Positions 1,996 through 21,302 of a DNA stretch of 21,302 nt are shown here, in pieces. The DNA is taken from positions 1 to 21,302 of the IMG/VR virus record IMGVR_UViG_3300033141_002883. The stretch is one strand, 5' to 3'. Below the pieces are notes generated by a model, which did not search any database, was not told the DNA's origin, and was given only the letters and a program-made list of their open reading frames with translations. A program made the position numbers and the translations under genes. Position 1 is the first letter of the stretch. The number at the start of each line of letters is the position of its first letter. Source of the DNA: a virus.

Positions 1996-2756
1996 TGGAT
2001 GACAGGGTAAAACTGTGGTGCGAAATGGCCGTTGACGTTCCTGATGCATTCACGAAAACCATTGACAAGGGCGGCTATGAACTCACCGACATCAGCCCCG
2101 CGTATGACTGGCAACTGCTCACGCGGCTGTGTGGCCCGGCAGGCTCAGCGGATACTTGGGGCTTCGATTATGACACAAATGACCTCGAAGTTCGCAAAAT
2201 CGAGGGCAAAAATCGCTACATTGCCGTCATAAAGAAGCTCCGTTGCTGGCTAAATTATGACGGAAAACGGTACGAATTGAGCTTGCCCGGCGGCTCTGAA
2301 AACTCCGACCCCGGCGACGCCCTAAAGGGTGCAATCACAAGTGCTTTCAGCAAATTCGTAGCACACTTCGGGCGGGGTTTCGAGATATACTCGGGGCAAA
2401 CATCGAATCAAAAACCGTCAACAAATCGCACGACATCGAGTCAAAATGTGAAAACTTTTGGAACCGATGGTGAAAAAAAGCGAAAAAATTTTGCGCCGCA
2501 GGGTGAAAAAAACCGTACCGCTAGCGCGCCAAATACGTGGCCGCCTGTGCCTCCGAAATGGGGCGAATGGAGGGACGAGCCACCCTTTAAGTCGGGGCCA
2601 AATGCGGGCGTCCCGTGGAGCGAAATGAGCAATGAGACCCTGCAGCATTACATCGATTCGCCGAACTCAAAGCTCTCGTGGAGGCATCGGGCGCACTGGG
2701 AGCTTGAATATCGAAAATCGCATCCGGTTATAACTTCTGATGATATACCGTTTTAA
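1995..2756 (+). CDS. Rad52/Erf-type single-strand annealing protein
   Basis: A 253-residue protein whose N-terminal 130 residues look like the Rad52/DdrA-like annealing fold used by phages: DISPAYDWQLLTRLCGPAG followed by WGFDY (33-59), a beta-rich stretch, then SDPGDALKGAITSAFSKF (104-121), the helix with the G/T-DALK signature. The middle (135-185) is low-complexity and basic, probably a flexible linker. Residues about 195-245 form a Trp-rich region (PPFKSGPNAGVPWSEMS...), and the chain ends in SDDIPF, nearly the tip of bacterial SSB (DDDIPF). Placement right after Gam supports a role in recombination. The start at 1995 overlaps the previous stop (TAATG) with GGAGG upstream. Erf and Sak classes are alternatives to Rad52. 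Confidence 0.7.
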   Translation: MDDRVKLWCEMAVDVPDAFTKTIDKGGYELTDISPAYDWQLLTRLCGPAGSADTWGFDYDTNDLEVRKIEGKNRYIAVIKKLRCWLNYDGKRYELSLPGGSENSDPGDALKGAITSAFSKFVAHFGRGFEIYSGQTSNQKPSTNRTTSSQNVKTFGTDGEKKRKNFAPQGEKNRTASAPNTWPPVPPKWGEWRDEPPFKSGPNAGVPWSEMSNETLQHYIDSPNSKLSWRHRAHWELEYRKSHPVITSDDIPF

Positions 2757-2797: not shown

Positions 2798-3517
2798 ATG
2801 GAGGTGTCGAAAAATAGCGTAGTAAAATACACACACCTCGATGCATCGGACTTCCTTTCTGATGCCGATTTTCAGTCCTACAATGCCGAAGAGCGCGGCG
2901 TCTATTGCACCATAATTTTTTACCTGTACTGCAACAAGGGAAAGGCGGAACTCGATACCCTCCGGATGCTCACAAACTGTCGCAATTTTGAAAAAGTTTG
3001 GAGCAAGGTCGGAAAAAAATTCGTCAAACGCACACAGCGACTTCAGGGCAAAAATCGTTGCGTCATCTCACATAAACGCGTCATAAAAGAGTTAAAGAAA
3101 GCGACAGCGGCGATGCAAACATATCGCAACAAAGGAATTAAGGGCGCAACGGCACGATGGCACAAGCATAATTCCAGCTATGCTTCAAGCAATCCTACAG
3201 CTATGCCTGAAGCAGATGCAGAAAAGAAAAGAAAAGAAAAGAAAGATATAAAGAGAGAAGAAGAGATAGCATCTCAGTATATCTTCCTTCTCGGGAAGAG
3301 AAATTCCAACAAGACCGAGACTGTCATCGCCGCTTTCAAGGAGCTTATTGAAAAGGACGGAAAAGACCCCGCCGATGTGCGCAGGGCGATAGAGACCTAC
3401 TACAAGCTCGGCGGCGTTATTGACGGGGCGGATGACATCGGCCTGCCTCGAAGGGTATGGGATTGCGCGAAGAAGTTGCGCCGCGACGATTCGGTGGGGA
3501 GGAGGTTCGCAGGATGA
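2798..3517 (+). CDS. DUF1376-like replication protein / helicase loader candidate
   Basis: A 239-residue protein. Residues about 10-110 match the pattern of DUF1376-type phage replication proteins: THLDASDFLSDADFQSYNAEERGVYC with a following helix (YLYCNKGKAELDTLRML) and KVGKKF. A highly charged Lys/Glu linker (about 140-155) is encoded by a homopurine tract with a GAAAA repeat. The C-terminal domain (about 160-239) is helical (TVIAAFKELIEKDGKDPADVRRAIE). Position directly before the DnaB-like helicase suggests an initiator or helicase-loading role (inference). The ATG follows GAGAGGGGG; the stop overlaps the helicase start by four bases. Confidence 0.6.
   Translation: MEVSKNSVVKYTHLDASDFLSDADFQSYNAEERGVYCTIIFYLYCNKGKAELDTLRMLTNCRNFEKVWSKVGKKFVKRTQRLQGKNRCVISHKRVIKELKKATAAMQTYRNKGIKGATARWHKHNSSYASSNPTAMPEADAEKKRKEKKDIKREEEIASQYIFLLGKRNSNKTETVIAAFKELIEKDGKDPADVRRAIETYYKLGGVIDGADDIGLPRRVWDCAKKLRRDDSVGRRFAG
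3221..3245 (+). repeat. GAAAA pentanucleotide repeat inside a coding region
   Basis: Four GAAAA units and a fifth GAAAG follow each other, within a longer homopurine stretch to about 3268. The unit length is not a multiple of three, so gain or loss of one unit would shift the frame of the DUF1376-like gene at its linker. Confidence 0.8.
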
Positions 3518-4845
3518 ACGAGCCGCCAAATGACCTGAACGCTGAAAGAGCCGTGCTTGGAAGCTGCCTCCTTGACAATCAGGCGGCCTATCTCGCACTT
3601 GAAAAGCTGACGGCTGATGATTTCTACTCATCTGCCAACCGCCGGATTTTTGAGGCCCTGAAATCTCTAATGCAAGATGCGGGTAAGGTGGACTTGGTTA
3701 CCATTCGCGAAGCGCTCAAGGGCGACATCGAGAAAATCGGCGGTGAGGATTACCTCGGCGAAGTTGCAGACTCAGTGCCGTCATCGGCGAATATTGAGCA
3801 GTATGCGGAAATCGTGAGGAATAAAAGCATCCTCAGGCAAATTATAGCACTTACCACAAAGGCGCGAGAGGCCGCCCTTGGCAATTACAAAAGCGAAAAA
3901 ATTTTGGCTCGGCTTACCTCGGCTCTGTTTCGGGTGGCGGAGAGGGGGGGCGGCAGAGTACTTAAGGCCTGCGATGTTGTCTCGGAAATCTTGAGAAAAC
4001 GAGAGTCTCGCGTTCCGGCGCTATCTACCGGCTTTTGGGGCTGGGACGAGGCAACGGGGGGTCTTGCAGAGGGGGATTATATTATTATTGCTGCAAGGCC
4101 CTCCATAGGCAAGACGGCCCTGACGCTTGCCGTTTTGGAGCATCTCGCAGAGGCCGGGGTGCCGAGCTTGCTGTTCAGCGTAGAGATGGACAGACAAACG
4201 CTTTTTGAACAAGTTGCCGCTTCAAAGGCGGGGCTTAATCATTTTCAATTTAGAAGACACTTTACAGAGGACGAGGAGGGCCGGTTTTACGAGCAACTCG
4301 GAATAATGGGCAACTGGCCGATTTACGTTGATAATGATTTTGATTTGACAGGGTTCAAATTTCGGCTTCGCGCAAGACAAGCCGTGATGCAGTATGGCGT
4401 CAAGGCGATTTTCGTCGACTATCTGCAACTGGTTAATGTGGATGACCCGAAAGGTAAGAGCGGAAATGAGCGGGCGCAGGAAATCTCAAGGAATCTCAAG
4501 GCGGCGGCGAGGGAATTGAGAGTGCCGGTTGTTTGCACCTGCCAGCTTAACCGAATGTCTGAACACAGAGAGGGCGATTTCTTCAGGCCCCGCTCATCGG
4601 AGTTAAGGGACTCCGGCTCCATTGAGCAGGACGCAGATGTCATCCTGTTACTCCACAGGCCGGAGCATCATCTGACAGCGCACAAGAAGGCGGTGCCTTC
4701 TGAATGGGTAAACAAGATGGAAGCTATCATCGCAAAACAGAGGCGAGGGCCGATAGGGAGTTTCTATTTGTATTTTGATAAAAACACGGTGAGCTTTCGG
4801 GATTGGACGGATACGGATGATTTAGCGGCGAGGGGTGTTGAATGA
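3514..4845 (+). CDS. dnaB: Replicative DNA helicase, DnaB family
   Basis: A 443-residue hexameric helicase that unwinds DNA ahead of the replication fork. The N-terminal domain (NDLNAERAVLGSCLLDN..., residues 5-100) is typical of DnaB. The RecA-like domain follows: Walker A ARPSIGKT (194-201), FSVEMD soon after, Walker B AIFVDYLQLV, CQLNR, the DSGSIEQDADVILLLHR segment and the arginine-finger-like KQRRGPIG. Length is close to the family norm (about 450). The frame can be extended upstream to 3457, but ATG at 3514 has GGGGAGGAGG upstream, overlaps the previous stop and gives the family's N-terminus. With the gene upstream it forms the replication module; no primase or polymerase is in view. 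Confidence 0.95.
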   Translation: MNEPPNDLNAERAVLGSCLLDNQAAYLALEKLTADDFYSSANRRIFEALKSLMQDAGKVDLVTIREALKGDIEKIGGEDYLGEVADSVPSSANIEQYAEIVRNKSILRQIIALTTKAREAALGNYKSEKILARLTSALFRVAERGGGRVLKACDVVSEILRKRESRVPALSTGFWGWDEATGGLAEGDYIIIAARPSIGKTALTLAVLEHLAEAGVPSLLFSVEMDRQTLFEQVAASKAGLNHFQFRRHFTEDEEGRFYEQLGIMGNWPIYVDNDFDLTGFKFRLRARQAVMQYGVKAIFVDYLQLVNVDDPKGKSGNERAQEISRNLKAAARELRVPVVCTCQLNRMSEHREGDFFRPRSSELRDSGSIEQDADVILLLHRPEHHLTAHKKAVPSEWVNKMEAIIAKQRRGPIGSFYLYFDKNTVSFRDWTDTDDLAARGVE

Positions 4846-5593: not shown

Positions 5594-6451
5594 TTGAAAG
5601 CCGTCTTTATAGCAGATTTGCACATAGGGAGTCATTACGCCCTGGCAAACCCGGACGATGTGCCGAGGTATGCGCCGGGCAAAAAGATACACAAGCGGTT
5701 GTTTGACCTTTGGCGGAAATGTATAGACAGCCCCTGGCACGCCCCCGACTTTCTCGTTCTGGACGGGGACATAATAGACGGCAAGGGCCGAAGGGCCGGG
5801 GGTGCAGAGCAGTGGACAACCGATTTCATTACGCAGGCCGAGGCCGCCATCGAATTGATAAGAATGTGGAAGGCAAAGAAAATTGTGGTTGTGAGGGGAA
5901 CAGATTATCACGTCAGCCCCGATTATTCTGGACTGTATGTCGAAGAATGGCTTGCCAGGAAAATAGGAGCGGAAGAGGTGTCCAATCAGGGACACATTCC
6001 CAAGGAGCGGAGAGACCACAGCGCGTGGGAAACGACCATCAATGTGGGCGGCGTGGTCATTCACATCGCCCACGCCATTGGCCTCAGCAGGGTTTTTCAC
6101 TATATGAGCACGCCGATAGCGAGAGCGATGCTGAATGCAAAGCTGAATGCGGCAATTCTCGCTGAAGATGAACGGCTAAAGAAGAAGATGAAAAAGATAC
6201 GCCCGCGAATTGTCATCAGGGCGCACGCGCATTACTACTGGATGTGCGATACATCGAATTCCACCGGAATTATTCTTCCGGCCTGGCAGGCCCGCACGCC
6301 ATATATGCTCAAGAAGGGAATCATCGGATACGGGCCAAAAATCGGATTCGTAGGTATAGAGTGTAAGGAGGGGGAGTTTAGAGTTGAAAAGAAAACGTGG
6401 GGAGTTGAAAGCGTCCAGCGGCCAAACTATCTCGTATTCAATGACAAATGA
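5594..6451 (+). CDS. Calcineurin-like metallophosphoesterase
   Basis: A 285-residue phosphoesterase of the binuclear metal fold. The metal motifs appear in order: DLH (residues 8-10), GD in VLDGDIID (58-59), a GNHD-like GTDYH (102-106), HIAH (157-160), and RAHAHYY (209-215) replacing the usual GHTH. Substrate could be a nucleotide, a cyclic nucleotide, DNA or a phosphoprotein; it cannot be told from sequence. Phage homologues of about this length, lacking a partner ATPase, are common next to replication genes. It starts with TTG, two bases after the previous stop, behind GGGAGGA. Asn of the GNHD motif is Thr here, which may lower activity. Confidence 0.8.
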   Translation: MKAVFIADLHIGSHYALANPDDVPRYAPGKKIHKRLFDLWRKCIDSPWHAPDFLVLDGDIIDGKGRRAGGAEQWTTDFITQAEAAIELIRMWKAKKIVVVRGTDYHVSPDYSGLYVEEWLARKIGAEEVSNQGHIPKERRDHSAWETTINVGGVVIHIAHAIGLSRVFHYMSTPIARAMLNAKLNAAILAEDERLKKKMKKIRPRIVIRAHAHYYWMCDTSNSTGIILPAWQARTPYMLKKGIIGYGPKIGFVGIECKEGEFRVEKKTWGVESVQRPNYLVFNDK

Positions 6452-7736: not shown

Positions 7737-8510
7737 ATGAAAGAAGACGATTATGTTCTGGTCTTGCGAAACTGCAGGACAGATATGACCAGCCGGGAGG
7801 GTTTCAAATATCCGCGCCGCGGGTGGGTAGAAACTAAAGATTGGAAGCCAACGTATAAATGTGGCAATGGCTTGCATGGGCTTCTATGGGGATGCGGAAC
7901 AACCTTGTATTTATATCCAGAGCCAGCCAAATGGCTCGTTATTAAGGTTAAGATGCAGGATTGTCTATTCGGAAAGGGTGATTTGGATGATAAGTGCAAA
8001 TTCAAGGGCGGCTATATAGTTTATTGCGGCGACAGAGGTGGAGCGATTCAATATCTTGATGAGCACGGGGCCGAAGATAAGCCGGTTATCTATGCCAACA
8101 GAGTCGCAGGAGATTACGGCACAGCAACCGCAGGAAATTACGGCACAGCGACCGCAGGAGATTTTGGCAAGGCAACCACAGGATACGAAGGCACGGCAAC
8201 TGCAGGAGATTTTGGCAAGGCAACCGCAGAAAATTGCAGCACAGCAACCGCAGGATGCTTTGGGAGAGCAACTGCAGGAGATTTCGGCACAGCAACTGCA
8301 GGAGATTTTGGCACAGCAACCACAGGATACAAAGGCAAGGCAACCGCAGGATGTAAAGGCCGAATTGTCATTGAATACTGGGACGCAGAAGCAGAGCGTT
8401 ATCGTTTGGCCGTGGGATACATCGGCGAGAACGGCCTGAAGCCGAATGTTAAATACAGGTTGGATGAAAAGCACGAGTTTATTGAGGCGGGGGAGAGCAA
8501 GGATGATTAA
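7737..8510 (+). CDS. Octapeptide-repeat protein (DUF7666-like N-terminus)
   Basis: A 257-residue protein in three parts. Residues 1-115 contain GFKYPRRGWVETKDW, KCGNGLHGLLW and WLVIKVKMQDC, resembling the phage domain (DUF7666-like) in which a G-x-H motif follows a conserved Cys. Residues 124-211 are eleven tandem octads of consensus A-G-[DN]-[FY]-G-[TK]-A-T. Such regular Gly/Ala octads would suit a solenoid or beta-roll. The C-terminal part (IVIEYWDAEAERYRLAVGYIGENGLKPN...) is a beta-rich cap also seen in relatives. Function unknown. RBS AGGAGGGG precedes the ATG. Frequent in phages with variable repeat number, so the length differs between relatives. Confidence 0.7.
   Translation: MKEDDYVLVLRNCRTDMTSREGFKYPRRGWVETKDWKPTYKCGNGLHGLLWGCGTTLYLYPEPAKWLVIKVKMQDCLFGKGDLDDKCKFKGGYIVYCGDRGGAIQYLDEHGAEDKPVIYANRVAGDYGTATAGNYGTATAGDFGKATTGYEGTATAGDFGKATAENCSTATAGCFGRATAGDFGTATAGDFGTATTGYKGKATAGCKGRIVIEYWDAEAERYRLAVGYIGENGLKPNVKYRLDEKHEFIEAGESKDD
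8106..8369 (+). repeat. Eleven 24-bp in-frame tandem repeats
   Basis: Eleven consecutive 24-base units encode octapeptides in one frame; ten fit the pattern GCAGGAGATTTYGGCAMRGC plus ACY, the eleventh decays into the C-terminal domain. Several units are almost identical (for example those starting at 8274 and 8298), while others such as that at 8226 (AENCSTAT) are diverged, a sign of repeated duplication and loss. The many open frames on other strands here are by-products of the repeat. Confidence 0.9.
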
Positions 8511-20783: not shown

Positions 20784-20817
20784 GGGGTGGCCCTGCTTCG
20801 GCGGGGCCGCCCCTTTT
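20784..20817 (+). terminator. Intrinsic terminator after the capsid gene
   Basis: Ten bases after the capsid stop, GGGGTGGCCCT (20784-20794) pairs with GGGGCCGCCCC (20803-20813) with a short TTCG-containing loop and is followed by TTTT. This is a rho-independent terminator in the sense of transcription. The stem contains the CGGCGGGG string also found in the embedded palindromes, so it might be a relative of them. The ribosome binding site of the next gene starts within three bases, so read-through must allow some downstream expression or the next gene has its own promoter. Confidence 0.7.
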
Positions 20818-20831
20818 GCAAAGGAGTTAAG

Positions 20832-21302
20832 GTGAGGATTCGGGTATTAAAACACGAGCATATTTTCGGCGTCTTCAGGAACGTTGGAGATGTCCTTGAG
20901 GTGCGGCCTGAATACTACGGCGAGGCGCAGAAACTTATTGACGCGGGAGTAATCGAAGAAGTTGGCTCTTTGGCAAAAAGGACGAAGAGGCGGAAAGAAG
21001 AGCAGAAGAAGGGGCGGAGGTTTTTTATTCCCATTCCGAAGTTCTCCGTGGTCATTCCCACATACAACAGAGCGGATGAAATAACGCGGCAGGTAAGCTC
21101 CATGAAGGACGAAGTGGGGCGGCTGGGCGGCAAGATTGTTATTGTAGATGACGGCTCGACCGACGAGACGGCTCAACGTCTCGGCCTCTTTAGAGAGCCG
21201 TTTATTCATTACTTGCATTTCCCTGAGAATAGAGGCGTGGCGCGGGTGCGAAAGAGAGGAAATGATTACGTCCCGAAAGACCATATCGTCATAGAGCTGG
21301 AC
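20832..21302 (+). CDS. Family 2 glycosyltransferase with N-terminal phage domain (3' end outside window)
   Basis: An open frame of 157 codons running off the window end. Residues 1-45 (MRIRVLKHEHIFGVFRNVGD then VLEVRPEYYGEAQKLIDAGV) fit a small beta-strand/helix domain common in phage head-region proteins (DUF7210-like pattern). After a Lys/Arg linker (AKRTKRRKEEQKKGRR) the glycosyltransferase begins: FSVVIPTYNRADEI and IVIVDDGSTDET, the nucleotide-sugar binding elements of GT-A enzymes, then NRGVARVRKRGNDY; the window ends at the likely DxD acidic site (IELD). It would move a sugar to a phage or host target. GTG start behind AAGGAG. Confidence 0.85.
   Translation, partial: MRIRVLKHEHIFGVFRNVGDVLEVRPEYYGEAQKLIDAGVIEEVGSLAKRTKRRKEEQKKGRRFFIPIPKFSVVIPTYNRADEITRQVSSMKDEVGRLGGKIVIVDDGSTDETAQRLGLFREPFIHYLHFPENRGVARVRKRGNDYVPKDHIVIELD

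Follow-up and report, generated by a model that had tools for sequence, protein, structure and literature searches.

The annealing protein encoded in the window (the whole 21,302-nucleotide stretch of viral DNA analysed here) carries at its C-terminus a tip of the type found on bacterial single-stranded DNA-binding protein (SSB), and this ending is real and unlikely by chance. The gene lies at 1995-2756 on the + strand, and its translation (253 amino acids plus stop) closes with ...HPVITSDDIPF followed by TAA. The preliminary description had read the terminus as TSDDIPF, close to the SSB tip DDDIPF; translation bears this out, with five of six residues equal and serine replacing the first aspartate. 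The range it gave for the tip, 2736-2756, does contain the SDDIPF codons (2736-2753, +; residues 248-253, disordered in the structural model) but also takes in the stop codon (2754-2756). An acidic C-terminal tip ending in Pro-Phe, one of the criteria for SSB, is thus present in the annealing protein as SDDIPF, and among window open reading frames (ORFs) of at least 30 amino acids this protein alone ends in PF. With independent column frequencies taken over 1160 deduplicated ORFs of at least 150 amino acids, and for a motif picked after being seen, a terminal [DE][DE][ILVM]PF has a probability of 9.7e-6 per ORF, rising to 3.3e-4 when the 34 non-overlapping ORFs of the window are taken together. 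A somewhat looser form of the strict-tip expression matched eight of the 1160 ORFs, all of them apparently SSB-like or RecT proteins as labelled by eye from starts or positions.

The protein bearing this tip is predicted to be a Rad52-fold single-strand annealing protein. An AlphaFold model (31 sequences) has a confident core at approximately residues 1-135 (1995-2399, +), with pLDDT mostly 77-95 and the strand/helix order of the Rad52 core. In structure comparison the predicted core matched human RAD52 (8bjm) with Z 13.0 over 133 residues at 3.1 Å (residues 1-141 aligned), followed by Mgm101 (Z 12.6), Sak of phage 80alpha (Z 10.0) and a further yeast Rad52 chain (Z 7.6); all remaining rows had Z ≤6.9. 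The fold therefore upholds the Rad52/Erf-like identity proposed beforehand. PHROG 7838 covers residues 3-150 (E 7.8e-9), while Pfam and NCBIfam profile searches of the protein gave no match. The OB-fold SSB domain PF00436 was matched neither in the protein, whose fold is that of Rad52, nor elsewhere in the window.

Between core and tip, residues 136-207 (2400-2615, +) form a mostly disordered linker, with pLDDT below 50 at residues 146-196 and again at 246-253. A long flexible linker had been described as preceding the tip; the disorder is there, but two weakly predicted helices (213-221 and 230-242, block means 53-74) intervene between linker and tip. They belong to a segment of no known family at residues 208-243 (2616-2723, +), which reached a mean pLDDT of 64 when modelled alone. 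The helical C-terminal fragment had no Pfam or PHROG match, and the C-terminal 72 residues gave chance-level matches only when compared with phages (best E 6). A possible resemblance of residues 186-243 to ExoX-like_C or QSregVF_b domains gained no profile support: PF20600 and PF12843 had no match in the window at E up to 10.

The annealing gene sits among replication and recombination genes on the same strand. Directly upstream is a Mu Gam-like end-protection protein (1459-1995, +; PF07352, E 4.2e-10; phrog_2205, E 1.4e-11), and directly downstream a primosomal-protein-like gene (2798-3517, +; phrog_9327, E 6.8e-9), followed by a DnaB-like replicative helicase (3517-4845, +, in a frame that the ORF list starts at 3457; PF03796, E 2.8e-67; PF00772, E 4e-30). 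Terminase, portal and major head genes were also recognised by PHROG profiles in the 21.3-kb virus record. A calcineurin-like phosphoesterase at 5594-6451 (E 1.9e-5) is a possible nuclease close to the recombination genes. The second half of a DUF7666 protein at 7737-8510 (E 7.5e-8) contains a series of GTATAGDFG-like repeats, and a glycosyl transferase family 2 domain (20787-21302, E 1.5e-15) lies directly after the major head gene in a frame that leaves the record end.

Conservation of the last six residues in homologues, by which the preliminary description had proposed that its idea be judged, was not found. An alignment-based scan gave at least 61 viral relatives; among the matches listed, 60 had a closed reading frame, none carried the strict tip, and nine ended in the looser NPF, SDPF or SNPF. 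No PF ending was present in the 13 relatives from a phage collection, with which the C-terminal parts do not align. Among 136 Aquificota genomes 21 had a match, and the tip was absent from all 20 loci read (for L348 and L350, the last residues only). The homologues are all remote, sharing 16-28% identity with the window protein, and no more than 42% where the comparison is confined to the shared core. Scans of viral contigs with a single protein as query, either the annealing protein or DnaB, returned no relative. The exact pattern GDALKGA[IV]T occurred at four loci, three encoding remote Rad52-like proteins and the fourth (L018) an unrelated ORF, and none of the 45 stretches combining DDIPF with an E-L-x-x-R pattern was recognised by eye as resembling the window's annealing protein. 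Because its detectable relatives lack the tip, it looks like a lineage-specific addition to the annealing protein.

The same ending does recur on other viral proteins. A viral scan for SDDIPF followed by a stop codon found at least 80 loci, which yielded 60 proteins once one 8-residue frame and near-duplicates were dropped. Among the matches listed, these 60 are for the most part proteins of ssDNA binding, replication or recombination: PF00436 matched eight, phrog_44 nine, phrog_18154 nine, SpoVG four and clamp loaders two, with single members matching RecT, Gp2.5-type, helicase, primase and processivity factor families; the family matches overlap and several members match no family. SpoVG-like proteins ending in SDDIPF were located at L136:285-551, L166:3300-3572, L168:2474-2740 and L170:3623-3901. 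The four PF04026 matches were assigned to these loci by reading the sequences; on that assignment, SpoVG in some phages also bears an SSB-type tip.

Most instructive is the RecT protein L111 (PF03837), which ends in SDDIPF and comes from an annealing family that Pfam does not relate to Rad52. The strict tip was present in eight of 41 closed RecT relatives, namely L111, six at 95-96% identity and L262 at 57% (L256-L262), with SDDIPF on the seven near-identical RecT/Bet proteins and IDDLPF on L262. Between L262 and L111 the linker is gapped and diverged, yet D-x-DD-[IL]-PF is kept. This outlasting of a diverged linker is the best evidence for maintenance of such a tip on an annealing protein, and given the RecT parallel, the tip of the window protein is no isolated oddity. 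One 41-kb virus record (G005) encodes two different RecT proteins, both tipped (L305:4319-5296 and L306:4033-5124).

We also compared tips borne in cis with those on a separate SSB. In the window neither PF00436 nor phrog_44 matched and no second tip carrier was present, although the window is a 21.3-kb fragment and an SSB may be encoded elsewhere. Among the matches listed, 31 of the 60 Rad52-like relatives have a separate tip-like ORF within 3 kb, usually an SSB directly downstream, as counted with a loose expression that also lets in some unrelated short ORFs. A strict either/or rule between tip and SSB fails for the looser endings, since all nine NPF/DPF-ended relatives among the matches listed also adjoin a tip carrier. 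These nine end in NPF, SNPF or SDPF (L028, L042, L043, L050, L066, L068, L069, L076 and L078), and their neighbouring ORFs end in DDIPF, DDEIPF or similar.

In the longer records, PF00436 matched 11 of 26 and phrog_44 found the same 11; the other 15 were read for tip-ending ORFs, leaving out 1.7 kb of G025. The four records with tipped RecT have no PF00436 or phrog_44 SSB, and their RecT genes are the only tip carriers. An SSB or separate tip carrier is present in 13 of the 22 comparison records (the 11 with a PF00436 SSB, plus G020 and G026, in which a different small ORF ends in IDDDIPF or SDDIPF), and neither an SSB nor a counted carrier in nine of 22; loose tip matches in G015 and G019 were left out of the count. 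A search for Gp2.5-type SSB gave zero matches anywhere, controls included. By hand arithmetic the association has p ~0.025 if the five tipped records are independent and ~0.26 if they represent two lineages. The window and the four tipped-RecT contigs, all without a recognised SSB, thus suggest that the tip is placed in cis where an SSB gene is missing, which with approximately two independent lineages is a lead, not a result. A broader proposal is possible but rather doubtful: that SSB-less phages place the SSB recruitment tip in cis on the annealing protein, as a portable module moved onto unrelated folds (Rad52-like and RecT/Bet), so that the annealing complex would replace SSB both on DNA and as the platform calling host repair and restart enzymes.

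Many host proteins have a common pocket to which SSB tips bind. We tentatively predict, with a likelihood approaching even, that the window's tip docks into this SSB-Ct pocket on genome-maintenance proteins of the host, for example PriA, RecO, ExoI or RecQ. The Rad52-fold protein would presumably form a ring on ssDNA and display the SSB-type peptide on its flexible tail, where a host pocket could bind it. The annealing complex may then present the same handle as SSB-coated ssDNA, in a fragment without a recognised SSB of its own, and the benefit could be a coupling to restart or repair once SSB is displaced. The original suggestion of SSB mimicry gains from the presence of an SSB-type tip on an annealing protein of Rad52 fold and from the independent RecT/Bet parallel, and loses from the absence of the tip in detectable homologues.

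A transplanted SSB tail can work, since a tail fused to PriB is reported to stimulate PriA (PMC8509808). The NDYPPF tip of the phage HK620 SSB is reported to promote Sak4 recombineering (PMC5928155), annealing proteins to read the last seven SSB residues (PMC10711431), and annealing genes of the Rad52/Erf/Sak3 superfamily commonly to adjoin ssb (PMC8093625). In a survey of titles and abstract openings whose coverage excludes most subscription papers, no phage annealing protein was described as bearing an SSB-type tip of its own. It is known that annealing proteins read the host SSB tail, and this limits the hosts in which they work; a protein bearing that tail would sit on the opposite side of the interaction and could tie annealing directly to restart or repair. 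Such a protein may also matter when annealing proteins are chosen for recombineering.

Docking into host pockets is judged the most likely of the readings considered, ahead of three others. In one, which we think unlikely, the acidic tip occupies the DNA-binding groove of the same protein, or its SSB-docking site within the ring, and is freed on ssDNA; its role would be to tune annealing or the displacement of SSB, not to recruit host proteins. Sak of phage 80alpha is reported to cooperate with SSB through the Sak C-terminal domain (CTD) and the SSB tail, and a movement of this domain with respect to the DNA groove has been proposed (PMC11846896); the window's tip follows a helical segment, a position like that of the 80alpha CTD. 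However, acidity alone needs no exact I-P-F ending of the kind read by SSB-Ct pockets, and that RecT, clamp loaders and helicases, among the matches listed, end in the same way is better explained by a shared outside partner.

An equally improbable account is that the ending serves no function today, having arisen by chance or through exchange with an SSB-like gene. The tip is kept in no detected homologue (for viral relatives, among the matches listed), and the SSB-like motif of DdrB is reported to be dispensable for radioresistance (PMC3834827), but a chance of ~1e-5 per ORF and the RecT parallel, in which the tip is kept across linker divergence, argue against a relic. The least probable reading, and a quite unlikely one, has host nucleases or helicases (ExoI, RecQ, RecJ partners) kept off phage DNA because the many tips of one ring fill their SSB-Ct pockets, alongside the Gam-like end protector; the Gam-like gene directly upstream indicates that end protection is probably under selection in this phage, but no sequence evidence tells blocking from recruitment, and abundant host SSB would compete.

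Docking of the tip into a host pocket, the favoured reading, can be set beside several known systems. With the bacterial SSB-Ct (DDDIPF) the window protein shares the last five residues, DDIPF, the order of acidic residues followed by hydrophobic-Pro-Phe, and the position at the end of a flexible tail; it differs in having a Rad52 rather than an OB fold, a helical segment before the tip, and serine for the first aspartate. The PHROG 7838 family, which includes Pseudomonas phage F116 and is annotated 'exonuclease', shares the N-terminal domain, and in its phages AH02 and K248 a Gam-like gene adjoins as in the window, whereas the PF ending sets the window protein apart from the phage-collection relatives. 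Deinococcus DdrB is described as having a similar SSB-like motif but is a cellular pentameric protein (PMC3834827). The tipped RecT/Bet proteins (L111, L256-L262) share the architecture of core, linker and terminal SDDIPF or IDDLPF, in four contigs in which no SSB was found, but belong to the unrelated RecT family PF03837. In phage 80alpha, as reported, a Rad52-fold annealing protein likewise works with an SSB tail, but the Sak CTD meets that tail on a separate SSB (PMC11846896), whereas the window's annealing protein bears the tip as part of its own chain.
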